Below, piece by piece: positions 6,589 to 26,435 of a stretch of 35,261 nt of DNA (position 1 is the stretch's first letter; every line of letters starts with the position of its first letter). The notes beneath the pieces were generated by a model, which was not told where the DNA came from, did no database searches, and worked only from the letters and a program-made list of their open reading frames with translations. The position numbers and the translations under genes are program-made. The stretch is from a virus, in IMG/VR virus record IMGVR_UViG_3300037245_000499, positions 1 to 35,261 of that record; one strand, 5' to 3'.

Positions 6589-6776
6589 AGACTGATGATA
6601 TGGAAACAATGGTTAATTTAGATGATACATTCTCGATTACCATAGAAGAAGAAAGCGATTGTTCTATGGACGGTGGGTATTCTTTTGAGACTACTTTCAA
6701 CACGACATATCTTGACGCTCAATTAGCTAATGCGTTAATAATCGAACTGCAACTTTTTTTAAAGGGCATAGAATAA
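6585..6776 (+). CDS. Small acidic protein
   Basis: This 63-residue, strongly acidic protein is coupled to the gene before (ATGA) and the gene after (TAATG). It contains EEESDCSMDGG and a hydrophobic helix at the end (ALIIELQLFLKGIE). I see no known motif. Acidity and small size would allow an inhibitor or DNA-mimic role, but there is no direct evidence for one. Confidence 0.5.
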   Translation: MKTDDMETMVNLDDTFSITIEEESDCSMDGGYSFETTFNTTYLDAQLANALIIELQLFLKGIE

Positions 6777-10900: not shown

Positions 10901-12942
10901 TCCCAATTTGGAGGAGCAAATTTATCGTCCCATTTCACTCTATTTGCTTCTTCGAACCCAAATTGCTCGTAGTAATCTATCAAAAATCCATCAAAAGCAT
11001 CTAGTGTTTTGACGCCCTTTGATATGGCGTCTATGACCAGTTCTGTTCCTAGTCCTTTTTCGCCTGAGAAATTAAACAGAGAAACTAAGTCTTTTTCAGG
11101 AGTCAATCCATACCCAGCATCTTTGCCTTTTATTGTGAATAGCTCAAACTCTTGCAATTCCGCCTCTGTTGATTGAGTCAATGCGGTAGGATCGTCCCCT
11201 TTGTCTCTTGAAGAAATAAAATCTTGCGGCGTCGTTTCTATAACCTCTACCTCACCAGCAATAGGTTCAAGTTCCGGAACCGGTTTCTTTTTCTCAACTA
11301 AAGCGTTGGCCTCCGCAAGTGCTTCGGGGAACTCCTGACTTGACAATCGAGCAATCCGCTCAGCATCTTCAACATTTTCGCCCTTACTCACTAAGAAATC
11401 TGCGGTTGTTTGTTCTATCTCGGTTAATGGTAGTAGTTCTTCTGCCGCAACATCTTCTATTTTTTCAAGAGTAACAGTATTATCGGCAAGGTCAATGTTG
11501 ATTGTTACGTCAATGTCTTCGCGTAAAGCAACCTCCGCCGCACGTTCGGCATACCCTTTTGCGTCCTCTGCGGTATCGAATGGCACTTCGCCAACCTCAA
11601 TAGCCTGTTGGAGCTGTTCGGCCTCGGTCGGGACTGACACGCCTTTTGTCAGCGATACGCCCAGGGTCATACCACGCCTTACGCTGGCAGGTGCTAGTAA
11701 TGTCACAATCTCAGAGCCTAAGTTCTCTGGCTGGAAGTCTTCTTTTATTCCCTCCCAAATACGCTCTCCCCATTTCCCCTTGCGATCCGACACTCCTGTA
11801 GCCTCACGAAGTATCGTACCGATCCGCTCCTCGCCAACCTCGCCCAATACAGACGAGAAGCCAGCCTTTGTTAGCATCCTAGAAGCGAAGTCGCCTGACG
11901 AACCTCCTGTGAGCTTTATCCAATCATCTTGTAGTGAGGCTATGAACTTCTTCCCAAATGGTAATTTACTTAAAGTACCCTTGATTAAATCCCCACCCAA
12001 TGACCCGGCCCCGAAGAATTCCTCTGAGAATGATTCAATAGCAACATCGCCCCATGCTTTTGCGAGACTTGTTGCCCAACTCTCTTTTCCGGCGATACCG
12101 AGTTCGATCAACTCTTGACGATAAACCGCTTTTTCACCAACACGCGGCAATAAACCTGTCGATGTCCTGACTACCGCACCAGTGGTAAGGCCAGCCGCCT
12201 TGATTGCAACTTTACCAGCGGCAGTCTGAACGTACTTGCCGAGAAGTTTTTCGCCTGCTTTCCTTGCAACATCATCGCCGAGCGAAGCAAGCCCGCCAGT
12301 CGCGGCGAATTCGATCATCCATGTCGGCAATTGAGACAGGCCAGCGGCAACTTTACCTCCGAAAGTTAAACCTCTTTGCTGTCTCTCGAAATCCTTTATG
12401 ATAGAAGCTATGAACCTCTGGTCTTGCTCACGGCTTGCCGCAGATGGTGGTAATATCCTTGTAGATAAACTACCCCTAGTCCCACCCCGACTGACCTGAT
12501 CCTTATAACGATTGAAGCCTTCATAGTCAAACGAAGCGTCCGTTAATCTATTCGCCACATTTATCACAGATAACGACTCGATAGCACCGGCTATTCCTCC
12601 CGTTATCGGTATTTTAGTTACGACATTTCCGCCCGTCCACTGTCTCTTGAATTCCTCACTAAACCCAACTCGGTTATCTTCAATTGGTTCATCGAACCCA
12701 GAAGGGTCCGCCCCGGCAGCACCTAACGCATCGTAAAAATACATATCTGCAATATCAAGAGGAACTTCGAATTCAATAGACGCATCCCAGACCTTACCAG
12801 CTCTGTCGAACGCAACGTCTTCGCTTACTGGCTCTTGTGTTGGCTGCGGTGGAACTGGCTCGGTTTCGGTAATAGCTGGATCACCAAACTCTGTCGTCTG
12901 ACCACTTACTGCAATTTCGTCTCCGAATAAAGTCTTTGCCAT
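7975..12942 (-). CDS. Giant polyvalent virion/ejection protein (T7 gp16 position)
   Basis: The 1655-residue protein starts at an ATG that overlaps the upstream stop (TAATG). Its position after a gp15-like protein is that of the large ejection protein in T7-like phages. Regions visible are: an acidic/Pro N-terminus (1-60); a long Gly/Ala helical part with hydrophobic segments (about 190-420); a GNAT-like domain (about 615-685) with GEKGLGTELVIDAI and DYYEQFGFEEAN; a Lys/Pro-rich hinge (about 836-868) with KAKVKAKVKPKKKP; and a helical C-terminal part (about 1050-1655) with VPFGRTPSAVAMQIINYSP near 1275, reminiscent of large polyvalent-protein-associated domains. It probably sits in the capsid and enters the cell with the DNA. 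No lytic transglycosylase motif is obvious. Confidence 0.75.
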   Translation of the reverse strand: MAKTLFGDEIAVSGQTTEFGDPAITETEPVPPQPTQEPVSEDVAFDRAGKVWDASIEFEVPLDIADMYFYDALGAAGADPSGFDEPIEDNRVGFSEEFKRQWTGGNVVTKIPITGGIAGAIESLSVINVANRLTDASFDYEGFNRYKDQVSRGGTRGSLSTRILPPSAASREQDQRFIASIIKDFERQQRGLTFGGKVAAGLSQLPTWMIEFAATGGLASLGDDVARKAGEKLLGKYVQTAAGKVAIKAAGLTTGAVVRTSTGLLPRVGEKAVYRQELIELGIAGKESWATSLAKAWGDVAIESFSEEFFGAGSLGGDLIKGTLSKLPFGKKFIASLQDDWIKLTGGSSGDFASRMLTKAGFSSVLGEVGEERIGTILREATGVSDRKGKWGERIWEGIKEDFQPENLGSEIVTLLAPASVRRGMTLGVSLTKGVSVPTEAEQLQQAIEVGEVPFDTAEDAKGYAERAAEVALREDIDVTINIDLADNTVTLEKIEDVAAEELLPLTEIEQTTADFLVSKGENVEDAERIARLSSQEFPEALAEANALVEKKKPVPELEPIAGEVEVIETTPQDFISSRDKGDDPTALTQSTEAELQEFELFTIKGKDAGYGLTPEKDLVSLFNFSGEKGLGTELVIDAISKGVKTLDAFDGFLIDYYEQFGFEEANRVKWDDKFAPPNWDLTKKGRPDIVFMNFKGDRNVERIRREVIGQKAAGEPAGTAETLELAREGSGEIRGKASKTAETNLPELGERGIETGVVAEKRIISKDAFDAALKRLGTIDKLKTGLDPQQIKDAAIVGGYLVETGVRKFADWSKRMIELVGESVKPHLQSIWDGIVSEQAAQPKAEKPKAKVKAKVKPKKKPTKPRVTTAQKKAEDNIRERGFISSIKTALPELRVEGTYIPRSTDKLSIRARNLVKDDIKAAENMALKGNSDKSVAVASELLKHYNEQALLATDETVKDALFEKAATISSDIAAKLTEAGRTVQAAIILSRLTPEGQLRFAAREIQKFNEKIEKTGGGKFGLQKKIPELTPEQSKKIVTEMEDIENMAPGTEKAKKFQKLQNEIADLVPTPLFKKLITIWKAGLLTGLKTQGLNIFANISHLATEKLAKIPATMIDKVIALGTGKRTVTASIQGLGSGLERGRKSGVDYFRTGYDERDIGTKLDYKRVNMGEGRLARALQRYTEIVFRLLGAADQPFYYATKMMSLYEQAKVEAINAGLKGKEAQSYIDNLLQNPTEDMVKNASKDAEAAVFQNKTKLGDLAKGIQELGGGVGEIVVPFGRTPSAVAMQIINYSPVGAVKTIIENIGKGKFNQRDFVTGLGRSIVGAIPLVIGAALWEEDMLTLDFPKTEKERQLWKIEGRKANSIKVDGKWRTIQSFGPAGNLLVVGGHFRRAFLDSGSPSEAMATALFGSAKSFTEQTFLQGVNQFTSALQDPERSGPRLARGLVSSVIPTISGDIARARDPLERRTGSVAARVKAKIPFLRETLEPQITVLGEERRVTANPIEIMIDPTRPSKDISTPVVKELRRLFDAGFTATPSLLGNRDGYDALTDKENTELWKRTGQITKDALTVMISNQGYKKLNDDQKADNITEVINTSRDVAKSEAVAKQIGGLKGEALTDKIIELSDSGLLTSDLIPGKIIDKLKKRKEKNN

Positions 12943-14609
12943 TATCTCTTAACTCCCACGTTTCCGTTTTTGTCAACATACCTAGTTCCACTTGGAAGCT
13001 TATCGTACTCTGCTTGCGTGTTCACTGCTTTGGGGCTAGAAAAAGAGCTTATAAGACTTGCCCTACTGGGACCGGTCACTGGCTTACCAGCGTCTATTTG
13101 AGACTGTTGCTCTGGCGTCGGCGTAATACTTCCGAGAGTTCTGGCACGTGCCTCTTTCACACCCCTTTGAATGTCCTGCCGACTCTTGTTCCAGTATACA
13201 TGCTTTAGGGATTCACTGAATTGGAAGAAATCTTTCCCAAGCTTGTCTGGGTTTCCAGTTACCCAATCCCTCAATTCTGCATTATACTGAGACAGTGAGA
13301 AGAATTGTTCCTGTCGAATTTTATTGGCTTCGTCTTTGAAAATATCAGCGGCCTTAATCTCCATTCCTTCTGTCCCCTCGGACAAGAAGTTTAAGAATGC
13401 GTTTTCTTCCGCAAAGTCGACTATTAATCTACTGGCTTCTGTATTGGCCCTTGACAACGACTCTGCCTGTGAGGATCTCAATGTGTCGGCTGCTGACTTC
13501 GCCAGCCTGCGATACGAGTCATCGTCAAGATTCGCGGCTGCGTTAGCAAGGTCTCTGTTGAATTGAGTCTTCGTTATGTTACCACGCCATATGTCCAGGG
13601 ACTTTGTATACAACTCCGATTCTGTTATTCTGTTCGTCACTGCATTGCCGTTGATAGACTTAGCTCTCTTACTGGCTCCGTCCTTTAGGTCAAGCTTTTG
13701 TTTGCTGGTGAGATTCAACTGCGAGTCTATGAATTCATTTATCCCAACCAGTTCACCTTCGTTTATTTTATCATAAACATTATCCGTTTCTTCTGACTGG
13801 GCAGCCTCGATCTGGATCTTATTCTCTGCTCGTCGGTTATTCACTCTGGTCTTCACCTCTGACTCGATTTCCTGCTTATCTCCATCAGGCACGTCAAGGG
13901 CTTCGATAGCGTCAAATGCCACATTGAGATCGCCGTTCGGATTGTCTTCTGTTACGGTCTGTTCCCATGCCGCGAACCCTATGCCGGAAGCGTTCTTTAT
14001 ATTTATTTTATTTTGGGCAGCGTCGAAGATAGCAAAGTCCTCAACCTGCTTAGCTCGTGCAGAACCTTCGTCGACTAGCCCATTAGTAATAGCCTTTTCC
14101 ATATTGTCAGTATACTTCGCTTTGCCATCAATTGAAAGGCTTTTGATATTATTTTCCTGCAATTGGCTGTAAGTCGCAAGTTCTTGCTTTGCCTTGATCG
14201 ACTCCATTGAAGCCTGTGTTTGCAGTCGTATTGAATCAAGATTGCTGCTGTACCATCTGGCATTGCTTTCTTTTGCTCGCGGCATTGTAGCCAGATTGCC
14301 AGACTTCTTAATGCCCGCAAGCATTTTGTCACGCTCTTTTTCCAAATCCTCGAAACTCGCCGCTGGGTTACTCGCAACAAAAACGTCATAATCTCCCATC
14401 GCTGCTTTAACTTGCCCCTGAAAGACAGCTTCTTCATTAGCAACCCTTGCTTGTTCAAGACGGTTGAAAGTTTCACCTCCGAACTTAGCAAGTGATCGAC
14501 CAAGGTTAATCTGGCCGGACCTGTCGGCTAATTGCGGTGGTGGCTTTACCGCACCCGTTCTACTTGGCGGCAATGCTGACCTCTGATGTAATTGTATTTC
14601 TACTGCCAT
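12942..14609 (-). CDS. Helical internal virion (ejection) protein, gp15-like position
   Basis: The 555-residue protein is preceded by AAGGGAAT. It is almost wholly alpha-helical and highly charged, with long stretches such as KAKQELATYSQLQENNIKSL and few aromatics. The N-terminus is Pro-rich (SALPPSRTGAVKPPPQLADR). Gene order (gp13-like, gp14-like, long fibre, this gene, giant protein) places it as the second ejection protein, the equivalent of T7 gp15. Sequence similarity by eye is weak; the assignment rests on composition and position. It is coupled to the giant protein by TAATG. Confidence 0.7.
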   Translation of the reverse strand: MAVEIQLHQRSALPPSRTGAVKPPPQLADRSGQINLGRSLAKFGGETFNRLEQARVANEEAVFQGQVKAAMGDYDVFVASNPAASFEDLEKERDKMLAGIKKSGNLATMPRAKESNARWYSSNLDSIRLQTQASMESIKAKQELATYSQLQENNIKSLSIDGKAKYTDNMEKAITNGLVDEGSARAKQVEDFAIFDAAQNKINIKNASGIGFAAWEQTVTEDNPNGDLNVAFDAIEALDVPDGDKQEIESEVKTRVNNRRAENKIQIEAAQSEETDNVYDKINEGELVGINEFIDSQLNLTSKQKLDLKDGASKRAKSINGNAVTNRITESELYTKSLDIWRGNITKTQFNRDLANAAANLDDDSYRRLAKSAADTLRSSQAESLSRANTEASRLIVDFAEENAFLNFLSEGTEGMEIKAADIFKDEANKIRQEQFFSLSQYNAELRDWVTGNPDKLGKDFFQFSESLKHVYWNKSRQDIQRGVKEARARTLGSITPTPEQQSQIDAGKPVTGPSRASLISSFSSPKAVNTQAEYDKLPSGTRYVDKNGNVGVKR

Positions 14610-14619
14610 GGTTATTCCC

Positions 14620-17115
14620 TTATGGTAAAGTTAATAGTTGCGAGCAAGTGGCCCATACCTTCATCGTTACATCTTCTACAAAGGCTGGACTATTGGAAAA
14701 GTGCATATCAACCCATATCCCGTCAGTCGTACCGTTCAATGATTCGTTTAGATTGCCTCTCCTGAGTCGCCAATACTGATTGGCTAGAGCAGTTTCGCCA
14801 TTAGCCCCAATATGCAAACTTGATTCGTTTTCAATATCACACTCATCGCCTGTCACATGAATGTCAAATAAGTAAGCATCAAATTCTGCGTTCACGCTGG
14901 TAGTTAAAAGATTAACATCGAATGTATTCAGTGTTATAGATGGTTGGTCGTTAAATTGCTCAAACGATATATGGTATATATCCATATCGGAGATAGTCAC
15001 ATCAGTCGTACTTAATGTCACGACTCCAACAAACCACTTGTCTGTGATATAAGCTTTAGTAAAGGCATGAACAGAATTTCCATTCAAGTCTGTAGTAGAG
15101 TTGTCACTGGTCACTCCGGTAAGTGTTATTACAGATGTATCGTTTGGCGTAGTTGCTCCTGAATCGCGGTCAACACTCGTACCTGTGACAGTTATATCAC
15201 CCAAAACATCTGCACCTGCTATAATTGCTATGACAATTTTGCCTATGCCTTTAGCACTTGCAACAAATGGTACACCAGAACTCACGGAAGCTGCATCGTC
15301 AAGCTTAATAAAGGCGCCATGTATATTGCTCTCGGATGCCCTTGCAGGTTCTGCATCATACTCCGTCAGTACTATTGGAATGTCAACTGACGGGGTGGTA
15401 TTCTTATAAACATCCGCAGCACTATCCCACTTGAGAATTTGATTATTAGAAATACCAGAAGTGCTTACGTCAGATAACGAATTTAGATTTGGTATTGAAG
15501 TTTGAAAGACATATATCTCGCCCGCAGTTGCATGTGCTATTGTAACAATTCCGACTAGGTGAGTTATGTCTGGGGCAGTTGGTGCAGTAGTGGTAAATCC
15601 TCCGCCTACCGCTACGTAAGCAGGCAAACCAGCGGCTACAGCAAACGATGTGTCAATATCCCTAACGAAACCTTCAGTAGTGACAAACCCTTTTTGGGAT
15701 GCTGCAATATCCTCGGTCGCCACAGCAAACGTTCTGAACCCAACACCGCCTGCAAAATCTGCATCGGCTGGAGCCACTAGTATATTAGATCCAGTAGCGC
15801 CAGAAATATAAACCGGAGTCCCATTGTCTATCTGGGACGCAGTGTCGTTAGTAACCCTAACTAACATCTCCTGTCCTATCTGAAGATTTACATTACCGCC
15901 AGGCATTCCAACCTCAAGAGTACCATCGTCGGTATTCCATTGAAGCCTACCTTCTGCACTACCATTAGAAAAGTCAGTATCAAACAGGACATAACCTGCA
16001 TTGAGAATAAAACTATCTTCCATATCAAGCACGTCGCCCAAGTTGGACATAGTCAGTGTTGTGCCTTGCCTATCCCAGTACCCTAGTATTCCAGAGGTAG
16101 GGACAGTTGATGTTAACTTACTAATTGAATCGGTATAAACTCCACCCAGAGGATCAAGGCTAGTCGCTATAATTTCATCGGCAGTTAAGATTGATTGAGC
16201 TGCTATAACAGCTAACCCAATGCCGTCAGGTCCTGCGTCGTAACTACCTAGAAAACTGCCAGTACCTGGAGCAGAGTTCCACGAGATATCTACTATTCCA
16301 ACACCGGTCGTAAGTTCCCATCTAATAGAAGAATACCATATGTCCCAATTAACAGAACCTCCAAAGCCATCTGGGTGAACACTGTCGCTTACGTACACTC
16401 TCTGCCCATTGAACAACGTACTCCCATCCCAAGCATATCCACCTATAGGGCCTGCCTTGAATTCGAATGCTTCAATACTGACAACATTAGTAATTGCACT
16501 TCCTGGCGACCTTATCGTTATATCAGTGCCTTGCGCAATGAAGTCAAAGAATGTATCAGCGACGATATTGAACTCAAGGAGTTGCCCACCGCTAAAGATG
16601 TCAATCCCGAGACCCGTATGACTACCCACATCTACAACGAGCGTATATTCCCGGCCAATCACTAAGGCGTCCTGTGACACATTAATAGCGCCATCGCTTA
16701 CGATACTAAGCCCAAGAGTACCCGAAATTGGTGTGATGTAATTCGTTGGTGTTCTCGCCTCAGCCATCGTCCAATCAGCTAGGGTGTTATCTGGATCACC
16801 AATAATTGTCCAGTCATCGAAAGCCGAATCGGTTACTTCATTTACATTTGACAGGAACTTAATGCCACCAGTCACAGACACTACTTGGATATCAGAAGAA
16901 GCGCCCGAAAGAGTTACATTACCACCCTGCATAACCAAACCGCCGAACGTCCAGTCCATGTAAACACTGTCGTTGTCTATGTCCCGGTAAAACTTAAGAG
17001 TCTCTGTACCGTCAGGACTGAGCAATCGAGTCTGATCTTCGACGACTTCCCAGCCCCCAAAGCAAATTGCTACGATGAATAATATTGATATGAATATGAA
17101 TAGTATTTTTATCAT
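14620..17115 (-). CDS. Long tail fibre/adhesin with N-terminal signal peptide
   Basis: The 831-residue protein is coupled to the gp14-like gene by ATGA. It opens with a signal-peptide-like stretch, IKILFIFISILFIVAICFGG (residues 2-21), followed by a Trp-rich beta part (WEVVEDQTRLLSPDGTETL). A beta-sandwich-like segment spans about 100-220, then comes a motif GPIGGYAWDG and RVYVSDSVHPDGFGGSVNWDIWY (222-261). This segment recurs in the second adhesin at the right end of the window. The 410-560 part resembles decoration/fibre beta-domains (NGTPVYISGATGSN), followed by LNSLSDVSTSGISNNQILKW, typical of tail fibres. It is likely a receptor-binding protein. The inserted position between ejection genes is unusual. 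Confidence 0.75.
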   Translation of the reverse strand: MIKILFIFISILFIVAICFGGWEVVEDQTRLLSPDGTETLKFYRDIDNDSVYMDWTFGGLVMQGGNVTLSGASSDIQVVSVTGGIKFLSNVNEVTDSAFDDWTIIGDPDNTLADWTMAEARTPTNYITPISGTLGLSIVSDGAINVSQDALVIGREYTLVVDVGSHTGLGIDIFSGGQLLEFNIVADTFFDFIAQGTDITIRSPGSAITNVVSIEAFEFKAGPIGGYAWDGSTLFNGQRVYVSDSVHPDGFGGSVNWDIWYSSIRWELTTGVGIVDISWNSAPGTGSFLGSYDAGPDGIGLAVIAAQSILTADEIIATSLDPLGGVYTDSISKLTSTVPTSGILGYWDRQGTTLTMSNLGDVLDMEDSFILNAGYVLFDTDFSNGSAEGRLQWNTDDGTLEVGMPGGNVNLQIGQEMLVRVTNDTASQIDNGTPVYISGATGSNILVAPADADFAGGVGFRTFAVATEDIAASQKGFVTTEGFVRDIDTSFAVAAGLPAYVAVGGGFTTTAPTAPDITHLVGIVTIAHATAGEIYVFQTSIPNLNSLSDVSTSGISNNQILKWDSAADVYKNTTPSVDIPIVLTEYDAEPARASESNIHGAFIKLDDAASVSSGVPFVASAKGIGKIVIAIIAGADVLGDITVTGTSVDRDSGATTPNDTSVITLTGVTSDNSTTDLNGNSVHAFTKAYITDKWFVGVVTLSTTDVTISDMDIYHISFEQFNDQPSITLNTFDVNLLTTSVNAEFDAYLFDIHVTGDECDIENESSLHIGANGETALANQYWRLRRGNLNESLNGTTDGIWVDMHFSNSPAFVEDVTMKVWATCSQLLTLP

Positions 17116-17723
17116 CTGAATAACGGGATTCCTCTCCTTGTTACTGTATTCGTTGAAAGCGGATTAAAGCTTCCGCCTGTTGGTTTTTTTGGCAAACGAG
17201 AACCTGCCAGGGCAATCGATCCGGCCCCAAGCAAGACTTGGCTCGCCGCATTGAAAACGGACTGCTTCTTTTGACTCTCACCAATAGCTCGCTCTAATTT
17301 AGAACTTTGCAATAAAGATTCAGTTTCTACACGGCCAGCCTTCAGACTAAAACCTATATCCTTGGCTATGCTATCACGAGTCTCAGTTTCAATTACAAGA
17401 GGTGAGCCAACATTGATTCTAATATTGCCTGCCGCAGCGGTAGCTTTTTGTGTCGCAATCAACCTCTGCCTACGTTCGCCCTGTATCTTGGCCTTTTCAA
17501 CACTAGCCTCGCGAACAGCTTCGGCATTCTGCTCATCAACGGCTGCTCTCTGATTAGCAATTGTCTGGGCGTCCTTGCCTTGTTGGATCGTACTACTGAC
17601 CTTCAATGCGGTCCCAGTAATCAAAAGGGTAAGTGTAATAGGGTCGTACCGTCTGAAAGCACTAAGCTTCCACAGCCTGCCGTTTTTCTCTATTTCAATT
17701 ACCTGTTCAAATATATTCATCAT
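17112..17723 (-). CDS. Internal virion protein, gp14-like
   Basis: The 203-residue protein overlaps the gp13-like gene by 17 nt and the fibre gene by 4 nt. It has a hydrophobic N-terminal segment (ITLTLLITGTALKVSSTIQQG, about 30-50), then a long Ala/Gln/Glu/Arg-rich helix (ANQRAAVDEQNAEAVREASV), then a Gly-rich end (LLGAGSIALAG). This arrangement, with a membrane-active segment plus coiled helix, is typical of the small ejection protein that forms the outer part of the DNA-translocating channel in short-tailed phages. Confidence 0.75.
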   Translation of the reverse strand: MMNIFEQVIEIEKNGRLWKLSAFRRYDPITLTLLITGTALKVSSTIQQGKDAQTIANQRAAVDEQNAEAVREASVEKAKIQGERRQRLIATQKATAAAGNIRINVGSPLVIETETRDSIAKDIGFSLKAGRVETESLLQSSKLERAIGESQKKQSVFNAASQVLLGAGSIALAGSRLPKKPTGGSFNPLSTNTVTRRGIPLFR

Positions 17724-18147
17724 TCACCTTTGAATAAAGCATAGAGGATATACCACCTGGAAAGAAGTTCTTACGCTCGCAGTCAAACTTAAAGCCTAAA
17801 GCCTCCACGAATCTGATCGCGATAGGGAAGTTCTTGCGAACATTAGCTTCGGTTCTTCTCATTCTTAATTGATCGATCAATTCATTCAGCTTATTCTCAA
17901 TTGCCCGGCAAGCTATCAATCCAAACACACCATTCTTTTTCGACTGTTTAGTCATCACAATCCAGCTTTCGCCCATACCTTCATGGAATAGATTGATACC
18001 GCCGACAGCAACGATCTCGCCGTCAAAGATGCAAGTGTACGTATTTGATGGTATAATCAAATCGGGATAGTCCTTCACTTCTTTCTGGAATGGATTCTGT
18101 CTTACGAACGCCATATCGCCAGTTTGATATTCACGAGTTTCAATCAT
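17707..18147 (-). CDS. gp13-like GNAT-fold internal virion protein
   Basis: The 146-residue protein starts at an ATGA overlap with the tail tubular B-like gene. It follows the acetyltransferase-like layout of phage gp13/DUF2833 proteins: an N-terminal strand with REYQTGDM, a central beta sheet (YTCIFDGEIVAVGGINLF), a helix (LIACRAIENKLNELIDQL) and a late NFPIAIRFVEALGFKFD segment like the C-terminal GNAT motif. The acetyl-CoA-binding Q/RxxGxG/A loop is not obvious, so it is probably structural. Its position next to tail tubular B and the gp14-like gene matches T7 gene order. Confidence 0.75.
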   Translation of the reverse strand: MIETREYQTGDMAFVRQNPFQKEVKDYPDLIIPSNTYTCIFDGEIVAVGGINLFHEGMGESWIVMTKQSKKNGVFGLIACRAIENKLNELIDQLRMRRTEANVRKNFPIAIRFVEALGFKFDCERKNFFPGGISSMLYSKVNDEYI

Positions 18148-20432
18148 CTGCGTATCTCCATCTCAGGGATAATTGCACGAACACCCAAAGGTACAGGCTT
18201 ACTGCTTTCAAGGTACACGGTCTGTTTCTTCATCCCGCTATATACCCAAGCGAATCGTTTCGGTTTCACTTTGCTTGTATGGAATTCCTGAAAAGCCAGA
18301 AAAGAACTGCCCGACGAGAAGTTGACCGGCGTAAGGTCACTATCCGAGCCATTGCCAAACGAGACATCACCAGTCTTGTAGAAATCAATATACAGAGCTT
18401 TGATCCTCTTATTAAGAGTGTAGTCTTGGGGATCGATCCTGATCGGCATTGTTTCCAGCTTTGCGGTATAAGGAAGTCCCATTGCAACGACAGATGCCGC
18501 GATATCAATAGTTACCTGCCCACCCGCAACTGTTTCGCTTTCTTGGACGATCCCATCAGCGAACACAGCGACCGTCTGGCCGTTTAAGTGGTCAAGACCA
18601 CCAAATGTACTAGCTGGCGTAGAATCGTAACCTAGCCCACTGTCAACGAACCACGCGTCCTCCTGGTCATCACCCCAGTAGTTAGGTTGGAACTGTTCTA
18701 TAAAAGTTGTGTTATTTCTCGTAACTGACACCCAAACCTCATCTTCGTTAGTTCCGGCTATGATCGCAACGCTATGGAAGTCCCCTGCTGTCACTTGTTT
18801 TGTCCATGCAATAACTGACTGTGTTCTATCGTATGTTAATGTTGCTATATCTCCATTAGCCAGCACGGACCATAAAACCGGATTCGGGCGTAGTTGAAAG
18901 CCAATATCTACTATTCCACTCTTGGTAATTTCCGGAGATAAAATTGTCAGGTCAGGAGACGTGTACTTGTCGACTTGGAGGGAAAAGGAAAACTCTCTGA
19001 CTTTTCTTGCACCTCTTTCGACGTAAAGAACTGAGTCGCCACCGAGAACGGCTGTAAGCGGTGCGCCTCCATGTCGTGTTTGCTGTTGGTAATTTGGGGA
19101 GGTTGGCGTAATCGCTTTGCCCTGATCGCCATACTTGCCGCATGATCCGCTTGTGCCTATCAGTAAGAAGTCCTGGCTGAGCATCCAAGCTATAGGATTC
19201 TGGCCAGGTAAGGCTACCGTGAAAGATGACGTATCAAGCGTGCCTTCTAAAAAGTTTGAATAGTCGTCAGGGTCGGTCTTACCGAACCATATCGTTTGAG
19301 GGTAAGTCTTGGACCCTCCATAAACAAGCCTTTGCTGATGAAAGGCCACCGTCAGAGGCCAACCTCTAAAGTCTGACCAATACCCCTCTCGCCATGCAGT
19401 AGTAGCATCAGTCGAGACAAGGTCAGTTAAAACCGTAGCAGTAGCAGAGGTGGCACTTGCGACAGCGGTTATTCTAACGACACCTTTATTTGTATTATCG
19501 GTAATTGTAAGCGTAAATGTCGGAGTACCTCCAGTGTAGTTGCTCATTACAACTCTGTAAATAGCACCATCTTCTTCTGTTTCAGCGGGGTTATCGAAGT
19601 CGGTATTAGTTAAGGATGATAGTGCAGCCCTCCAAGACGTCCCCCCGTTAGTGCTTCTTTGTAGCGTGATAGTTCCGCCTGAATTCCCACTGGTAATAAA
19701 CCCATATGCCCCAGTAAAGAATGGACTTGATAACGAAGTTCCATTCCCTGAAAATGACCCAGTAACCGTAGAGCTTTCTCTGGTCTGTTCAATTGCCCAT
19801 AAAGAACCAACATGACTTGCTCCAGGAGTGCTTTGAAATATATCATCAGTCGCAGTAAGAGTAATCGAGCCAGTTATAGCGGACGGCGTTATAGTGGTAG
19901 CTGTGTCGTTTTCGGGTAAGAATGGGCCTGTTGTGAAGTCAACATCTATCATCGTCCAATCAGTATGACTTGTTCTTGATAGTAACTGCGGGTGATCCGT
20001 TCCGTTGGCAAAGTACATTTCATTATCTGCTTGGTCGTGCTGGATGCTCCGCAATTCTGATGTATCGTAAGGCGTAACTATCTCGACAGGATTTACCGGG
20101 TCAAGTATCTGCCCGCCATCCCTAAAAAACCTCATATACTGATTACCGGTTTCGAGGATATAGGCATCGTCTACGGAGAATTCAAATGGCAGTAGTCGCG
20201 GTTGTTCTCTTTTGGCGGTTGCAATATACTTTGTACCTGGCCGCTTAAGGGCTGGACCTTGTACGGTGACAAACATATTTTCAAGTATTCGGCTTGATGA
20301 ATTATACTTCTGGAAATCCGACCGGGCCTCCATAAGTGGAGATACCTGCCCAGCGTTGAAGGAGGTAATTGACGGACTTAACCCAAAAGCCACGTTGCAT
20401 AACAACAGTAATATCAAGAATTTTCTAATCAT
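18144..20432 (-). CDS. Tail tubular protein B-like (nozzle) with signal peptide
   Basis: The 762-residue protein starts at ATG 20432 after ACAGGTGAC. The family N-terminus is recognisable (SPSITSFNAGQVSPLMEARSDF, then NMFVTVQGPALKRPGT), as in T7 gp12-type nozzle proteins of podovirus tails. In front of it lies MIRKFLILLLLCNVAFG, a Sec signal-peptide-like sequence with a basic n-region, Leu-rich core and AFG before the predicted cut. No internal ATG could start the protein between the signal and the conserved N-terminus. The rest is beta-rich with Thr/Ser repeats, and a conserved end region (EFHTSKVKPKRFAWVYSGMK). The signal peptide is highly unusual for this family. Confidence 0.85.
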   Translation of the reverse strand: MIRKFLILLLLCNVAFGLSPSITSFNAGQVSPLMEARSDFQKYNSSSRILENMFVTVQGPALKRPGTKYIATAKREQPRLLPFEFSVDDAYILETGNQYMRFFRDGGQILDPVNPVEIVTPYDTSELRSIQHDQADNEMYFANGTDHPQLLSRTSHTDWTMIDVDFTTGPFLPENDTATTITPSAITGSITLTATDDIFQSTPGASHVGSLWAIEQTRESSTVTGSFSGNGTSLSSPFFTGAYGFITSGNSGGTITLQRSTNGGTSWRAALSSLTNTDFDNPAETEEDGAIYRVVMSNYTGGTPTFTLTITDNTNKGVVRITAVASATSATATVLTDLVSTDATTAWREGYWSDFRGWPLTVAFHQQRLVYGGSKTYPQTIWFGKTDPDDYSNFLEGTLDTSSFTVALPGQNPIAWMLSQDFLLIGTSGSCGKYGDQGKAITPTSPNYQQQTRHGGAPLTAVLGGDSVLYVERGARKVREFSFSLQVDKYTSPDLTILSPEITKSGIVDIGFQLRPNPVLWSVLANGDIATLTYDRTQSVIAWTKQVTAGDFHSVAIIAGTNEDEVWVSVTRNNTTFIEQFQPNYWGDDQEDAWFVDSGLGYDSTPASTFGGLDHLNGQTVAVFADGIVQESETVAGGQVTIDIAASVVAMGLPYTAKLETMPIRIDPQDYTLNKRIKALYIDFYKTGDVSFGNGSDSDLTPVNFSSGSSFLAFQEFHTSKVKPKRFAWVYSGMKKQTVYLESSKPVPLGVRAIIPEMEIRR

Positions 20433-20445
20433 TCATGTCACCTGT

Positions 20446-21669
20446 TTAGTATTTTATAATGAAGTTAAGTGTCAATGATGGCTGTAAGTTGTTATGCGAG
20501 GAACCTAACGTCGGGCCTGGATCTACAGTTACTACGCCTTGGTTCACTCCAGATGTTCCGCCGATAGACTTCAAAGCCCCTCCTCCAGCTGACCAGACAT
20601 TAATTCTATGCTCATGGGCTGGCAGTTCGTCCGATATTAAGGTATGCGTCTCAGTACCTTCCTTGTCTGCGAGAGCATGGGCAGTTCCGTCAGGCACATC
20701 AGCGGGATCGGCCGTACCCACGCCGAGAGGAACTTTACCTCTCATATCAGGGAGATTGAAAGTTGTTGATCCGTCACCAACACCGTAAGTTGTCGTTATA
20801 AGAGTAAATAGAACGCTGTATGTAGTTCTCGATACTGCCTGCCCCTGACAAAGAAGCCATCCGGACGGTGCAGTTGTTGCCCCAGCGTACATCGACATAG
20901 AGCCAACCGGCATAAATCCAGGTCCACCAACCGGCATAACAGGCGTTGCGGTGAATGTTGCACTTGGAAATGTCTGAGTATCTGCCCATGTATTCTGCTG
21001 TGCGATTAAAGTCGCTATCGTCTCGGCTTGAGTATTTACTTCAAGCAAGCCCCTGCCGGAAGCTGCATTTGCAGTCTGAATGAATATACCACCAAATACT
21101 GAAGTTGATCCTTCTGGGATAACCCCAGAGAAAGCAACTGGATTTCCATTCAAGTCGAATCCGAGTAGCGTACCAGCCCGCTCTACTGTTGGCGGTATTA
21201 CCATATCAAAAGAAGTATCGTCGCTTCCGGGGATCCTCAAAGAGCGTTGAAGTCGATCTTGCATGTCCCGCACTTCGCGAGTCAGTTTATCAAGTGCCAA
21301 CACCAATGAAGCGACAGTAACAGCCCCAGAAGACAACTCTTGACTTACTTTAATATCTCGCTCAATAAACACTTTGAAAGTAGCCGCAAGAGCAGGGTCG
21401 ATAGTTACAGTTCCGCCATTAAGATAGCTTCCGCCAGTTGGAACTACGGTATAATCAGTGTCTATTGTTAATGCTGTGGTCGGTTGGCCGGTCGAAGTCA
21501 ATGGGGCATAGACATTTATGTCGTCAACTGAATTGCAAGCGAAAGTGAAGATGAACTCCGTTGTCACTCCATTACACGCAAACGACTGTCTTGTCGCCTC
21601 GCCTTCAGGCACAGTTGCAAATACTGGAATCACAAACAGTAAAAATAATATGATAAGTGCTTTTTTCAT
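20446..21669 (-). CDS. Collar-domain tail fibre with signal peptide
   Basis: The 407-residue protein is coupled to tail tubular A by TAATG. It begins with a textbook signal peptide, MKKALIILFLLFVIPVFA, cut after V-F-A. The T7-fibre-type N-terminal domain follows (CNGVTTEFIFTFACNSVDDI, then FIERDIKVSQELSSGAVT), then an amphipathic helix (LDKLTREVRDMQDRLQRSLR). At about 268-316 is a phage tail-collar domain (GWLLCQGQAVSRTTYSVLF, FNLPDMRGKVPLGVG), ending LQPSLTLNFIIKY as is usual for these fibres. It is expected to attach at the tail and contact the cell surface. Confidence 0.85.
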   Translation of the reverse strand: MKKALIILFLLFVIPVFATVPEGEATRQSFACNGVTTEFIFTFACNSVDDINVYAPLTSTGQPTTALTIDTDYTVVPTGGSYLNGGTVTIDPALAATFKVFIERDIKVSQELSSGAVTVASLVLALDKLTREVRDMQDRLQRSLRIPGSDDTSFDMVIPPTVERAGTLLGFDLNGNPVAFSGVIPEGSTSVFGGIFIQTANAASGRGLLEVNTQAETIATLIAQQNTWADTQTFPSATFTATPVMPVGGPGFMPVGSMSMYAGATTAPSGWLLCQGQAVSRTTYSVLFTLITTTYGVGDGSTTFNLPDMRGKVPLGVGTADPADVPDGTAHALADKEGTETHTLISDELPAHEHRINVWSAGGGALKSIGGTSGVNQGVVTVDPGPTLGSSHNNLQPSLTLNFIIKY

Positions 21670-22388
21670 TATAATGCTCCAATAGCTCGGCTTCTACCGC
21701 CGCGATAGTTCTTTACATTTCTTGCTGAATTGTTGAATCCAGTCACGTTTGCTTTCTTGGCCTTTGGTAGCACAACCTGCTCGTACAAAGCTCGCATGGC
21801 AGTGCTGGCTTTCATGTCTTTACCTACAACTGGAGCAACCTCAGAAGCAAGGAGAGTTGCTATACAGTCTATCATGTTCTCGCTAAATCCTGCTGTCTTT
21901 GGTGTGTCAATGACATATTCAATGAAAGCACTGTTGCCATCCGTGTTAGATAAAACGTCGGTCAGTAGCAATTTCCCTGATCCAGCCTTATTAGCAACGA
22001 TTTCCCATTGAAAGAAAACCATCCCTCCTGGGTCGGAGTAGGCTCGTTGATCCCTTGTCGCTATACTGCCCTCGCTGAATTGACTGACAACCATAAGGCA
22101 GTCTGTGGGAATGTTAAACGCATGGTCCCAGTTTCCTATCTCGGGCAAATTATCGTCACCTACTTCATTTCCGAGGTCTTTGAATCTTATAGTAGACCGA
22201 AAAGATGCTTGACTGGTGGCTAAATCAGTAATAACAGTACGTCTTATTCTCGGGAATGAGATTTTACACCACGCTGAAACCTTGTCGTCTCCGTCGATGC
22301 TGTCTATGAACGCATTTCCATCAAGTGCATCGCCTGCGCCCCCGAGTTTCCCCAGTGCTAAATTGCATATGTCAGTTTCGGTAGGCAC
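21669..22388 (-). CDS. Tail tubular protein A-like (adaptor)
   Basis: The 239-residue protein starts at GTG 22388 after GAGGA. The opening TDICNLALGKLGG and CKISFPRIRRTVITD match the gp11-type adaptor (head-tail gatekeeper) of T7-like tails, as does the length. It links the portal to the nozzle. It has no signal peptide, in contrast to the proteins on either side. Confidence 0.85.
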   Translation of the reverse strand: MPTETDICNLALGKLGGAGDALDGNAFIDSIDGDDKVSAWCKISFPRIRRTVITDLATSQASFRSTIRFKDLGNEVGDDNLPEIGNWDHAFNIPTDCLMVVSQFSEGSIATRDQRAYSDPGGMVFFQWEIVANKAGSGKLLLTDVLSNTDGNSAFIEYVIDTPKTAGFSENMIDCIATLLASEVAPVVGKDMKASTAMRALYEQVVLPKAKKANVTGFNNSARNVKNYRGGRSRAIGAL

Positions 22389-22390
22389 GA

Positions 22391-23245
22391 TTAATATCCT
22401 CGAATAAGTAATTTGCTGTCAGCGGAAGTCGCACTTGTTACGACAACCATAAAGTCAGCACCTTTAACGTCCACGGAGGCTTCTGCATTGAGTTCGCCCA
22501 CAGGAGATATCTCTGACCAGTCTGCCCCCCATGCTTTGGCAGTAAGAACAAGCGTGTCTGCCAATTCAAAATCGATCAGGTCAGAAGCAGCGTGAGTATA
22601 GGCATTGTTAGATAGAACCTTTCTGGCTCTAAGTATAGAAACCGTTTCAGAGTTCGTAAATGTCCCAGAAGCGGATCGATATGTCACAGTTCCTGCGGCA
22701 GTCCCAGCGGACCATGTTGACGCTGTCTCTGCTATAGATACAATAACCGCTGTTTCGCCGCTAGTATTTCCAGTTACCGTATCGCCGATCTGAGGAATAT
22801 AAGTTCCGCCACTCGTAAACGTAATCTGGTAATAAATATCCTGTTGCTGACCTATTATCCACGCCAATTGACCGGCATAGGTGAGGTCGCAATCAAGACC
22901 ACCGCCAAGCGTGCCAAAGTATATCTCATGGGTTACAGTCCCATTTTCGGTTATGCCAATTGCCCTCAATCTTATTGCATTCCATTTTGCAGGAATCGGC
23001 ATAATAGAAATTTGAGCTTCCTCATTTGCGTTAGCTGCAATCAAAGCATCTAACCTTTTCTTCATCCTCTGGGACTTGCCCAATGCGGCTGCCTGAGTAT
23101 CTGCCGAATTCTCAGATTCAGCTATTGCCCAACCCGACTGGATGGTATGCAAAGCATCGCCATCGACCTGACTTACAGAAGTAAGTGAAGCGCCGGCAAC
23201 GATAAGTAATGCCATTCCAATCATAATATAAAATAACTTTTTCAT
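22391..23245 (-). CDS. Virion-associated protein with signal peptide, function unknown
   Basis: The 284-residue protein is preceded by AAAGGAAT. The N-terminus KKLFYIMIGMALLIVAGA is a signal peptide or signal anchor with a good A-G-A cleavage context. A helical piece follows (AAALGKSQRMKKRLDALIAANA), then a long beta-rich part with VTGNTSGETAVIVSIAETAS, suggesting a surface or fibre fold. It lies between a capsid-surface-type gene and tail tubular A, so it is probably a head or tail appendage. No known family is recognised. Confidence 0.65.
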   Translation of the reverse strand: MKKLFYIMIGMALLIVAGASLTSVSQVDGDALHTIQSGWAIAESENSADTQAAALGKSQRMKKRLDALIAANANEEAQISIMPIPAKWNAIRLRAIGITENGTVTHEIYFGTLGGGLDCDLTYAGQLAWIIGQQQDIYYQITFTSGGTYIPQIGDTVTGNTSGETAVIVSIAETASTWSAGTAAGTVTYRSASGTFTNSETVSILRARKVLSNNAYTHAASDLIDFELADTLVLTAKAWGADWSEISPVGELNAEASVDVKGADFMVVVTSATSADSKLLIRGY

Positions 23246-23292
23246 TGTAAATTCCTTTAAGAAATGGGCAGAACCGAAGCCCTGCCCGTTAA

Positions 23293-23802
23293 TTATTTAG
23301 TCACAGTCGGCTGCGCAGTAAGACCGAAGCATCCTGTAAGAATCCACCCAACAGTATCATCGATCCATTCAATTGTGATGGTATCACCGGCATCAGCAAA
23401 CACAACCGTAGCCCAACCAGTTCCGGTAGAATTAGTGCCGACAGTCAAAGTGCCATCACCATTGCCATCAGTTCCAAGTGTGATGGTCAGTCGTTGCCCT
23501 GGCTCTCCATCGACAATAGTTAACGCCTCTGCGTCAGCACCAGTCGTTTTCGTGACAATAGCGGCAGTAATGGGTATAGCAAGAGAGTCAGCAGCAGACG
23601 TAGTAAGACCTGCCTTCTGACCGCCTATCAACCCTTCGACCTCAACCATATTGAGATAGATCGGGTCAAGCGTTTGGCTGCCTGAATTTCGGTAAGCGTT
23701 ATTCAGATACTCAGCGGACCCATTCGTCAATGACGCGGCAACGAAAGGAGCCGAAAGTATCGCAATAAGCAATACCGATATAAGTATAAAAATCTTCTTC
23801 AT
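23293..23802 (-). CDS. Surface beta-protein with signal peptide
   Basis: The 169-residue protein is preceded by TTTAGGAGTT. It begins KKIFILISVLLIAILSAPFVAA, a strong signal peptide with cleavage near V-A-A. The mature part contains a segment I recognise from many phage head/tail-surface proteins that normally lack a signal: DAEALTIVDGEPGQRLTITL, then GTDGNGDGTLTVG, and DAGDTITIEWIDDTVGWIL. It sits beside the cement-protein gene, so a capsid decoration or head-fibre role is plausible. Confidence 0.7.
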   Translation of the reverse strand: MKKIFILISVLLIAILSAPFVAASLTNGSAEYLNNAYRNSGSQTLDPIYLNMVEVEGLIGGQKAGLTTSAADSLAIPITAAIVTKTTGADAEALTIVDGEPGQRLTITLGTDGNGDGTLTVGTNSTGTGWATVVFADAGDTITIEWIDDTVGWILTGCFGLTAQPTVTK

Positions 23803-23860: not shown

Positions 23861-24352
23861 TTACGGCTGCCCAACATCGCTGAACAACACCTGCGCTCCA
23901 CGGAAATCAGAAGCTGGAACATCTTCAAGCCATGCGTCAATCGTGAATACACCATTAGATGTTGTATTACGATACATCAATCTGATATGCGGATTCGCAA
24001 TATCGTAAGGCAATTGAACACGCTGAATCCATGCCCCTGCCAACGCAAGCCTATCGTCCGACGCTATGACTTCTGCGCCATTAACACCAACTAACGGCAT
24101 CAATGTAACATTAGTCCATGTGCCGGCGGGATCGCCTGAGCCATCATCCGCGTCTGTCTGAAGCTCAATGCTGAGAGTGTCAGATGCGTCAGTCGGAGCT
24201 ACGGCAGTACGAATACAGAGATACGGTGAATGCTGACCAACGCCGATCTTTGGTTTGGTTTGTCTCAGGTCAATTGTATTCGTAGACGCTGTATCGTCTG
24301 CCGAGATTGCCTGTGCGTCACTCAGGACGCCTAAATTATCATATGCACCCAT
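23861..24352 (-). CDS. Bbp16-like capsid cement protein
   Basis: The 163-residue protein starts after AAAGGGTAC. It opens GAYDNLGVLSDAQAISADDT and STNTIDLRQTKPKIGVGQ, the typical start of Bbp16-family decoration proteins, followed by paired strands with TLSIELQTDADDG. Its position directly downstream of the major capsid gene agrees. It probably stabilises the capsid shell from outside. It has no signal peptide. Confidence 0.8.
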   Translation of the reverse strand: MGAYDNLGVLSDAQAISADDTASTNTIDLRQTKPKIGVGQHSPYLCIRTAVAPTDASDTLSIELQTDADDGSGDPAGTWTNVTLMPLVGVNGAEVIASDDRLALAGAWIQRVQLPYDIANPHIRLMYRNTTSNGVFTIDAWLEDVPASDFRGAQVLFSDVGQP

Positions 24353-24389: not shown

Positions 24390-25400
24390 CTACACAGCAG
24401 CTACAGCGGTCTCGGTCCTTCTCAAAGCATCTTCAGACCGGAGAAGAATATTGCCGATACGATGCAGGGGAATACCATAAATGTTATTCGTGTCATAAAT
24501 AACATTCTGCTTCGACTCAGCCATGATCTTCAAGAAGGTCATCATACGCTTTGGAACATACGCGAATATCTGACCAGAACCCTTAAAGACTTCTTCTTCA
24601 GCCTGGAAAATCAACTGTAAGAAACTCGGGTCGAGATCGGCGACAGCAGCAGGAATATTACGAACCCGGGCAACTGCACGCTGGTCTTCGATATTCAGAC
24701 CAATCTTCCACGAAAGTTCTGTCCTTAGTTCTTCACGTTCCTTGCTGTTTTCGGCATCGGCGTACACTAAACCTCTATCGCGTTTGTCAATACCCATCTG
24801 AGGATCATTGATAGGAGCTATGCCAGAAAACTTGTCCATTTCCTGCTGAATAAGCCAGATAGACATTGTATTACTACCGGTTCCGCCTGCATCAAATACG
24901 AACGGATCGGCTGCGGCATTGCTCGGGTCAGTCGGATCCGTTGCATCAGGGATCGAATAACGAACATCCAAACCATCAAACTTCTCAGGAGTCGCAACAC
25001 TTGTTCCGTAGAAGAAGTGATTCGTTACGCCCTGACCGAAACCCGCCATGTGACGGCTTACGATTTTCGCACGATAAGCAATCTTATCGGGCTTGAGATC
25101 GTAAACATCTAGCGGAATAGCAACTCTGTCCTTGAAGATGCTAATATTCTCGGTAAATGTGTCCCAGCGAACCGTACTGGAATCGTGACCATCGCCAACT
25201 TTAATAATCTGAGGTTTGGGCAGCGATACTTCCCGTGACCCCTCATTGCTCAATATCCCGGATGCTGTTTGCATCTGTAAGTCAAACAGAAAAGGGCTAT
25301 CTTCCGTAAGTGTTTCCGCCCACGGGACAAACTTGTTGTCCTGTACGTTCTTGAGACAATCAATAAGATTGTATCTTGTGCCTAAATCTAATTGGCCCAT
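24390..25400 (-). CDS. Major capsid protein
   Basis: The 336-residue product is counted from ATG 25400, which has TTTAGGAGTATTTAAA in front; an in-frame ATG at 25427 would add nine residues but lacks a Shine-Dalgarno site. Context (after scaffold, before cement protein) and composition support an HK97-fold capsid protein. It has an N-terminal arm (LDLGTRYNLIDCLKNVQDNK), a middle with GFGQGVTNHFFYGT and ADAENSKEREELRTELSWKIGL, and a C-terminal NIYGIPLHRIGNILLRSEDA typical of such proteins. No protease gene and no delta-domain-like extension are seen; the separate scaffold fills that role. Confidence 0.85.
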   Translation of the reverse strand: MGQLDLGTRYNLIDCLKNVQDNKFVPWAETLTEDSPFLFDLQMQTASGILSNEGSREVSLPKPQIIKVGDGHDSSTVRWDTFTENISIFKDRVAIPLDVYDLKPDKIAYRAKIVSRHMAGFGQGVTNHFFYGTSVATPEKFDGLDVRYSIPDATDPTDPSNAAADPFVFDAGGTGSNTMSIWLIQQEMDKFSGIAPINDPQMGIDKRDRGLVYADAENSKEREELRTELSWKIGLNIEDQRAVARVRNIPAAVADLDPSFLQLIFQAEEEVFKGSGQIFAYVPKRMMTFLKIMAESKQNVIYDTNNIYGIPLHRIGNILLRSEDALRRTETAVAAV

Positions 25401-25427
25401 TTTAAATACTCCTAAATTAAATAACAT

Positions 25428-25556: not shown

Positions 25557-26435
25557 CTATTGTTTTATACCTGCCATATTCCTGAGTTGCTGAGATTCAT
25601 TTTCCCACGAATCAGAAGGGTTGCCCCATTCGTGTTCAGTAGAGGGGAATTCCGCTTTCTTCCATTCATAAGGCGTTATCTGGCTTTCGCCACCACCACT
25701 AGAACCGTCGCCACTGTGAGTACCGCCTTCGGCTGCCATCGGCGAGAACGCTTGCAACATGAGTTTAGCAAGTTTTGGATTCGTGGTCAGTCCACCGTCT
25801 ACCATAGCCTGAACAACTTCGTTAGTTGCTTCTAAGTCCAAACCGTTCTCTGTGGCCATACCTGTTATTGCTCGCTTGAACAACTCTGTTTGCTTTTCAA
25901 CTTCAGCGATACTCCCAAGATCAGCGATCAATGCTTCATTACATGCCGTCGCTTTCGCCTCAAACGCAACCGTGTCTCGGTCTGCCATAGTCTCCATGGC
26001 AAGAGCGGAAACAGGCCCATTGTAGAACTCTGTCAGCTTACTGACCGTCTCAAGTGGTATCTTATTATCGATAGCCCACTGCTTGACAAGTCCGGTAAAT
26101 GCTTCATTGACTTGACCTTCTTCGCCTAACCCAGCCTTGAAGTCGACTTCGGCGAAAGATTCGAGATCCTTTGGCATTGTTCTGCCAAGAAGCTTATTTG
26201 CATTACTGGTGAACTGATCCCTTGCCTGATCGTCCTTGAAGCCCTCCATTGTCTCGGGGAACTCGAACGGCTTACCAACTGCCTTAGAGGCATTGTAACC
26301 ACCGACAATAGCGTCTGCCTGGGTTGCGTACTTTGCATTCGCTGACCGAAACGCCTCTTGATTATCAGTCGTAACGGAATCATGTTCGAAACCCTGTGAC
26401 CAATGTTCGCCACCATTATTATTTTCATCCGACAT
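25557..26435 (-). CDS. Scaffolding protein
   Basis: The 292-residue protein starts after AAAGGAAG. It is acidic and helical, with no cysteine-rich or catalytic motif, and lies between portal and major capsid genes, as is usual for podovirus scaffolds. Helices such as KTELFKRAITGMATENGL-type sequence in the middle and a Gly/Ser-rich linker (GGTHSGDGSSGGGESQ, about 235-250) precede a C-terminal segment (YEWKKAEFPSTEHEWGNPSD) that may bind capsid. The assignment is mainly by position and composition. Confidence 0.75.
   Translation of the reverse strand: MSDENNNGGEHWSQGFEHDSVTTDNQEAFRSANAKYATQADAIVGGYNASKAVGKPFEFPETMEGFKDDQARDQFTSNANKLLGRTMPKDLESFAEVDFKAGLGEEGQVNEAFTGLVKQWAIDNKIPLETVSKLTEFYNGPVSALAMETMADRDTVAFEAKATACNEALIADLGSIAEVEKQTELFKRAITGMATENGLDLEATNEVVQAMVDGGLTTNPKLAKLMLQAFSPMAAEGGTHSGDGSSGGGESQITPYEWKKAEFPSTEHEWGNPSDSWENESQQLRNMAGIKQ

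Follow-up and report, generated by a model that had tools for sequence, protein, structure and literature searches.

During our analysis of an uncultured short-tailed phage genome (IMG/VR record IMGVR_UViG_3300037245_000499; the window is the whole stretch analysed, 35,261 nucleotides) we were confronted with the question of why neighbouring genes that appear to encode virion parts, which in tailed phages are assembled in the cytoplasm, should start with signals for protein export. The initial annotation had drawn attention to five such proteins, of 831, 762, 407, 284 and 169 residues, and had noted that the head, adaptor and ejection proteins lack the signal. This observation is confirmed by our analysis. 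All five open reading frames, which lie on the minus strand, start with three-part Sec/SPase I-type signal peptides (SPs), comprising a basic n-region, a 7-15-residue hydrophobic h-region and a small-residue (-3,-1) cleavage site. None of the five contains the lipobox L-[ASTVI]-[GAS]-C of SPase II substrates, although two small genes outside the block (6776-7063 and 33338-33577) do look like lipoproteins.

To judge how often such N-termini arise by chance we applied a three-region rule (basic n-region, an 8-residue core of mean Kyte-Doolittle hydropathy >=2.2, and a (-3,-1) site). The rule recovers 17/17 E. coli/M13 signal peptides and, at the first start codon, is satisfied by 5/527 genes in unrelated control phage contigs versus 40/138 genes in contigs of the clade; the trained predictors SignalP 6 and Phobius, named at the outset as a check, were not applied. 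The chance of finding 5 or more positives among ~16 structural genes at the control rate is about 3e-7, or 3e-5 to 4e-4 if any start within 60 codons is allowed. Four of the five starts have an SD-like site in place (AGGTGA at 5 nt in the case of the 762-residue protein), whereas the 831-residue gene has none at standard spacing. No internal start with a good SD lies between the SP and the conserved domain, but weak in-frame TTG/GTG codons are present inside the SP of the 762-residue protein, and the 284-residue gene has ATG codons at residues 8 and 11 inside its hydrophobic core.

The 762-residue protein (18144..20432, minus strand) is a tail nozzle of the T7 gp12 type. It matches PHROG 376 (E=6e-172) from residue 19 and the solved tail nozzle of phage Carin1 (8ck1_A, E=7e-201), and its AF2 model (pLDDT 81.7) retrieves 8ck1 (E=4e-53) and T7 gp12 (E~1e-18 to 1e-22) in Foldseek. 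Its SP comprises residues 1-17 (20382-20432), MIRKFLILLLLCNVAFG, followed by LSPSITSFNAG. It had been proposed beforehand that the signal idea would fail if homologs showed the same segment folded inside the virion. However, the solved nozzle relative aligns from its residue 10, so it lacks any such segment, and AF2 leaves residues 1-20 outside the fold (pLDDT ~50). Known nozzles begin directly with the platform domain; the gene product here does not, and would do so only if the SP is cleaved. In relatives the SP preceding this domain is 15-33 residues long, and in part of the clade ConA-like lectin domains are inserted near residue 110.

The 407-residue protein (20446..21669, minus strand) is a collar fibre with a tail-fibre-type N-terminal domain (phrog_1640, residues 20-130), starting right after the SP, and a Pfam Collar C-terminus (PF07484). 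Its SP comprises residues 1-18 (21616-21669), MKKALIILFLLFVIPVFA, followed by TVPEGEATRQ, and is found on orthologs in 6 other loci. A search with this fibre returned mostly Collar-domain hits to unrelated phages, which we reused as controls. The 831-residue protein (14620..17115, minus strand) is an appendage or fibre-like protein without clear family, whose SP (residues 1-20; 17056-17115), MIKILFIFISILFIVAICFG, is followed by GWEVVEDQ; relatives keep both the SP and the WEVVEDxxxLLSPDG N-terminus. The remaining two proteins occupy the slot between the decoration and adaptor genes. The 284-residue protein (22391..23245, minus strand) has an SP of residues 1-19 (23189-23245), MKKLFYIMIGMALLIVAGA, followed by SLTSVSQ, and the SP is retained in relatives down to about 20% identity; a PHROG scan of its family gave nothing, and its beta-rich AF2 model is of low confidence (pLDDT 57) and found no Foldseek match. 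The 169-residue protein (23293..23802, minus strand) has an SP of residues 1-23 (23734-23802), MKKIFILISVLLIAILSAPFVAA, followed by SLTNGSAEY, and an N-terminal (x)YGSGxKTLDPxYLxM-type domain that is shared with 300-800-residue SP proteins of relatives. Designation as virion or tail genes, as in the initial annotation, is proven for the nozzle and strongly indicated for the 407-residue fibre, but is only inferred from position for the 831-, 284- and 169-residue proteins, which have weak or no family match.

In contrast, the other structural genes, all on the minus strand, lack an SP. These encode the 239-residue adaptor (tail tubular A, T7 gp11 type; 21669..22388; phrog_394), which is the first component on the non-exported side of the boundary and has no SP in any relative examined, a 163-residue head protein in the decoration slot (23861..24352; phrog_427), the 345-residue major capsid protein (24390..25427; phrog_212, E=1e-30), a 292-residue protein assigned as scaffold by position only, with no PHROG match (25557..26435), and the 586-residue portal (27283..29043; phrog_332, E=9e-32). 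The 1655- and 555-residue ejection-type proteins (7975..14609) also lack an SP; the former has an internal virion protein match (phrog_6651) and the latter is assigned by position. The same is true of the 203- and 146-residue internal virion proteins (17112..18147; phrog_418 and phrog_308), even though they lie between SP genes.

Alignment with homologs, which had been suggested as a way to see whether the signal is restricted to one clade, revealed two classes of nozzle N-termini among relatives in IMG/VR and in genomes: 30 loci with an SP and about 50 without. In the SP-nozzle loci 22% of neighbouring genes have SPs (65/293), compared with 1.2% (5/406) in the others (Fisher by locus p=3e-11, not phylogenetically corrected), although this co-occurrence rests on few independent evolutionary changes, and SP-less relatives (loci L151 and L172) sit beside each SP clade. 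SPs are present on 90 genes belonging to 25-32 unrelated mature families, including pectate-lyase and beta-helix tailspikes. The SP is conserved as hydrophobicity plus a cleavage site rather than as sequence, and 29/29 nozzle SPs have a (-3,-1) site 7-12 residues before the conserved motif, against 49% expected by chance.

Two further natural experiments, like the retention of the cleavage site, argue for selected export. In one relative (locus L125) the nozzle gene is split into 126- and 690-residue halves, joined by TAATG, each of which carries its own SP. In a close relative, G514, the SP has been lost from nozzle and fibre together, while other appendage genes keep SPs. The G514 fibre starts with M followed by TVASSESIRE at the point where SP orthologs are predicted to be cut between FA and TVPEGE, and its nozzle starts within three residues of the predicted site. 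G514 also shows, however, that nozzle and fibre work without an SP in a close relative. We found no disulphide signature, since the Cys content of SP proteins is not raised and even Cys numbers are not enriched.

The likely hosts of these phages are Planctomycetota, and a MAG of the putative host group has SPs of similar style and hydrophobicity. A general requirement in this phylum is rejected, because the nozzle relatives in the other nine matching genomes of a 392-genome phylum sample show no SP where the N-terminus is present. Bipolaricaulota were also considered as hosts, but no further members were found in 100 genomes.

The closest cultured relatives by nozzle are the pelagiphages HTVC010P/HTVC035P and epsilon15-group podoviruses, which have a similar gene order (portal-capsid-adaptor-nozzle-internal proteins) but only 30-38% nozzle identity; the records examined (HTVC035P, vir555 and Klebsiella ST512-KPC3phi13.3) lack an SP on the nozzle. 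The filamentous phage coat proteins pIII and pVIII of M13 are virion proteins made with cleavable Sec signals and assembled at the membrane. Filamentous phages, however, extrude without heads or lysis, whereas here only the tail module of a DNA-packaging, portal-based phage carries signals; the resemblance lies only in exporting virion parts. We saw no pI/pXI ATPase or pIV secretin gene on inspection of the open reading frames of the window or of the circular relatives, but these were not sought by profile, and whether membrane assembly of the filamentous kind has a counterpart here is left undecided by this inspection. SAR or signal-bearing endolysins, spanins and phage lipoproteins are also exported with N-terminal signals, for example JG068 gp47 (PMC3765740), but these are lysis or exclusion proteins rather than parts of the virion, and five rumen phage genomes had 0-2 signal peptides each (PMC5723332). 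Literature searches found no report of signal peptides on tailed-phage nozzles or fibres; one paper notes that phage-encoded DGR target proteins lack signal peptides (PMC6199706).

Of the three meanings offered in the initial annotation, namely export and assembly of appendages at or across the inner membrane, a retained hydrophobic anchor used at ejection, or a targeting device that builds tails on the membrane, the comparative evidence supports the first, although the other two are not excluded. We consider it more likely than not that the five N-termini are functional Sec/SPase I signal peptides of a phage whose outer virion module (nozzle, fibres and other appendages) is exported across the inner membrane, whilst the inner module (portal, capsid, decoration, adaptor and ejection proteins) is built and filled with DNA in the cytoplasm. 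In T7 the adaptor binds first, then nozzle and fibres, and a closed portal holds the DNA before the tail is added (PMC6702177), so the SP boundary is a natural assembly break. In this view adaptor-capped heads would pick up the nozzle and then the fibres at or after breach of the envelope, in the same order as T7 but in another compartment. The presence and conservation of the SPs, their cleavage sites, their restriction to outer parts and the concordance between nozzle and fibre are what the sequences demonstrate. Export, though well supported by sequence, is itself deduced, as are cleavage and the time and place of joining; export and cleavage in cells, localisation and virion proteomics were not examined here. 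How a hexameric nozzle would find and seal DNA-filled heads after export is unexplained. The fullest form of this model, a two-compartment assembly in which nozzle, fibres and tailspikes are exported through Sec and processed, and the virion becomes infectious only when both halves meet at the moment the envelope is breached, is possible but tentative, and we rate it somewhat less likely than not.

Among the alternatives, it is possible though unlikely that the segments are uncleaved membrane anchors, such that nozzle and fibres are inserted N-in/C-out and stay tethered to the membrane where heads dock, or that the anchor serves at ejection. The cores are very hydrophobic (mean 8-residue Kyte-Doolittle value 3.5), and some group II slot proteins (MKxxIGKIxxPxLLxL...) have longer, less clearly cleavable cores, but this reading is countered by the cleavage site directly at the domain boundary in the nozzles and by the start of the SP-less ortholog at or near that point. 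About equally unlikely is that export is real but serves some purpose other than virion assembly, such as surface display of fibres and tailspikes to block superinfection or strip host polysaccharide, with virions built from a non-exported fraction or from alternative starts. Several SP proteins are tailspike or lectin-like, and G514 keeps SPs on appendages while its nozzle and fibre have lost them; in contrast, the nozzle has no plausible surface role on its own yet carries the most conserved SP, well-placed internal starts are lacking, and both halves of the split nozzle have SPs. Less likely still is a translation or targeting device, whereby SRP brings the ribosome to the membrane or slows folding so that tail parts do not assemble too early, but the proteins finally act in the cytoplasm. 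Very hydrophobic cores suit SRP targeting, and the SP status of nozzle and fibre changes together, but a conserved cleavage site is not needed for this role and signal-bearing proteins delivered by SRP are normally translocated. It is highly unlikely that the segment is an ordinary folded part of the virion with no export role, as nothing specific favours this and the segment is absent from solved nozzle relatives, lies outside the confident AF2 fold, and occurs on 25-32 unrelated families and on both halves of a split nozzle. An artefact of wrong starts, chimeric contigs or chance is refuted by conservation across contigs from many metagenomes and three MAGs, and SP starts overlap or abut the upstream stop codon in several loci, although a few relatives need ATT/ATA starts.

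The textbook view is that tailed-phage morphogenesis takes place wholly in the cytoplasm, whereas the signals described here suggest that the tail parts leave the cytoplasm before the virus particle is finished. The presence of an SP on the nozzle gives a cheap sequence marker for finding such phages and links them to Planctomycetota, a group whose phages are poorly known, and the SP-less relative G514 is a ready natural control. A clade that marks its nozzle, fibres and tailspikes, and not its head, for export would mean that head and tail are made on opposite sides of a membrane; this would create an assembly checkpoint tied to lysis, and would make the T7-type adaptor-nozzle joint testable as a post-lysis joining step.

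The minus strand of the 35,261-base IMG/VR record carries the structural block, which comprises the terminase small and large subunits, portal, a scaffold-position gene, capsid, a decoration-slot gene, the 169- and 284-aa genes, adaptor (239 aa), fibre (407 aa), nozzle (762 aa), internal proteins of 146 and 203 aa, the 831-aa gene, and the 555- and 1655-aa ejection-type proteins. The initial annotation had claimed that the 169-, 284-, 407-, 762- and 831-residue proteins begin with Sec-like signal peptides (SPs), and this observation holds: all five have basic-hydrophobic-small N-termini, in frame with proper starts, and four of the five have an SD-like site. No other large gene of the block possesses such an N-terminus. 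Outside the block, two small proteins on the plus strand (6776-7063 and 33338-33577) are lipoprotein-like (VIAGC and VLQGC, respectively) and are possible spanin or exclusion proteins, whereas a 205-aa protein (5705-6322, plus strand) shows a weak match to the permuted papain-like amidases (PF05708, E=0.004), is also found in the phage of locus L118 (a circular contig in a Phycisphaerae MAG), and is a possible lysis enzyme. An isolated 399-aa fibre-like protein (33960-35159, minus strand) lacks an SP; its DGxGGxxxNWxxW segment resembles part of the 831-aa protein.

To ask whether these N-termini could have arisen by chance, we applied a simple three-region rule, which recovers 17 of 17 E. coli/M13 signal peptides. 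At first start codons this rule hits 5 of 527 genes in unrelated phage contigs (L034-L113), but 40 of 138 genes in contigs of the present clade. Five or more positives among ~16 structural genes would be expected with a probability of about 3e-7, or 3e-5 to 4e-4 under laxer start rules.

The argument is anchored by the 762-aa protein, which is a nozzle according to its match to PHROG 376 (E=6e-172, from residue 19), a profile match to the solved Carin1 nozzle 8ck1 (E=7e-201) and its fold. The AF2 model leaves residues 1-20 at a pLDDT of ~50, outside a confident body. Alignment with homologues had been proposed beforehand as a way to see whether the signal is restricted to one clade, and relatives from IMG/VR and genomes were found to fall into two classes. 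Thirty distinct loci start 22-44 residues before the conserved F-N-x-G motif, with segments resembling MKK...LLLCSxAFA ahead of the predicted cleavage point, whereas about fifty start 9-22 residues before the motif and have no such segment. The nozzles of loci L176, L015 (ATT) and L147 (ATA) keep the segment even though it is reachable in frame only with these unusual start codons. In all 29 sequences listed, a (-3,-1) site falls 7-12 residues before the motif, against a background of 49%, and the mature length so defined matches the N-terminal length of SP-less nozzles (medians 10 and 12). In part of the clade (e.g. L128 8210-11977, L141 6864-10742, L146 and L140, among others) the nozzles carry ~480 aa inserted after residue ~110, which in L141 is a Laminin_G_3/ConA-like lectin (E=3e-26); a lectin built into the nozzle is unusual.

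The presence of SPs is a module-wide trait. Within 10 kb, 65 of 293 co-directional genes have SPs in loci with an SP nozzle, compared with 5 of 406 in loci with an SP-less nozzle (Fisher p=3e-11 per locus, not corrected for phylogeny). In L115 (vir555, an archaeal virus) and L029, a gene about 1.1 kb and 3.1 kb upstream of the nozzle, respectively, has an SP-like N-terminus although the nozzle does not. The 90 SP genes fall into 25-32 families that are unrelated in their mature parts, and these include beta-helix and pectate-lyase tailspikes, whereas portal, capsid, decoration, adaptor and ejection proteins lack SPs. Phylogenetic analysis of the mature nozzles places the SP rows in two fully supported clades (10 and 18 rows) inside one weakly supported group (SH-aLRT 80), each next to an SP-less row (L172 and L151) whose fibres or neighbours also lack SPs. 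The number of independent changes is therefore small, and the correlation must not be read as that many independent events. The adaptor (tail tubular A; 21669-22388 in the window) is longer in SP loci (221-340 aa) than in the SP-less loci measured (197-207 aa, only two), and may help to hold DNA before the nozzle arrives.

Three natural experiments bear on the role of these segments. In locus L125 the nozzle gene is split at the point where others carry lectin insertions; the 126-aa and 690-aa parts are joined by TAATG and each starts with its own SP, which cannot be explained by a structural role of one N-terminal helix but can be explained by a need to export each polypeptide. A second SP-bearing copy of the nozzle N-terminal domain, with a long insert containing a GLUG motif, lies just upstream of this split nozzle (L125 7344-9941). 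Both nozzle and fibre lack the SP in G514:C12, a circular 46.9-kb phage contig. The fibre begins MTVASSESIRESF where SP orthologues are cut between FA and TV, and the nozzle begins MKISPTITSF where they are cut between FG and (Y/L)SPTI, whereas the 1193-aa slot gene and a 228-aa gene keep their SPs. G514 nests inside an SP clade next to L118, albeit with modest support, so this is most simply a secondary, joint loss, in which the two proteins that must touch each other changed together. Finally, the SP boundary coincides with the order of assembly in T7, in which the adaptor is added first, then the nozzle and then the fibres, with a closed portal retaining DNA before tail addition (PMC6702177).

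Genome scans found SP-type nozzles in a Phycisphaerae MAG (L118, a circular 44.7-kb phage contig), in a Planctomycetota MAG (L119) and on a small contig of a Bipolaricaulis MAG from the same sample series. The genomes that contain L118 and L119 (G001 and G002, respectively) lie in one family with G514. In L119 (2200-7094) the nozzle lies beside a host histidine-kinase gene that is 92% identical in a sister genome, which suggests integration, although the contig is short. What looks like an IS110-type transposase fragment also lies next to it, and the locus is perhaps a prophage remnant. Phage and MAG GC are alike (~0.45-0.47) and the style of the SPs is compatible. The assignment of the host to Planctomycetota is of moderate confidence. 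SP-less relatives also occur in Planctomycetota, and hence the phylum alone does not demand the trait.

Known phage signal peptides are located on lysis, spanin and exclusion proteins (e.g. PMC3765740), and a survey of five rumen phages found 0-2 per genome (PMC5723332). Filamentous phages export coat proteins but are not tailed. We found no report of signal peptides on tailed-phage nozzles or fibres in the open-access literature, to which our search was confined, subscription papers and preprints not being covered.

The initial annotation had offered export and assembly of appendages at or across the inner membrane as one of several possible meanings, and our analysis favours this inference over the others. 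Whereas the signals themselves, their cleavage sites, their distribution and the concordance between nozzle and fibre are all shown by the sequences, we infer from them that export and cleavage take place and where the parts are joined, no experiment having been performed. It is not explained how leakage-prone heads would wait for the nozzle, or why G514 could drop the signals, and the SP proteins show no disulphide signature. Three alternatives are less likely, namely that the segments serve as membrane anchors, that export serves a purpose outside the virion and, least probable of the three, that the segments act in targeting without export. Most likely the outer module is exported by Sec, cleaved by signal peptidase I and joined to DNA-filled, adaptor-capped heads when the envelope is opened.
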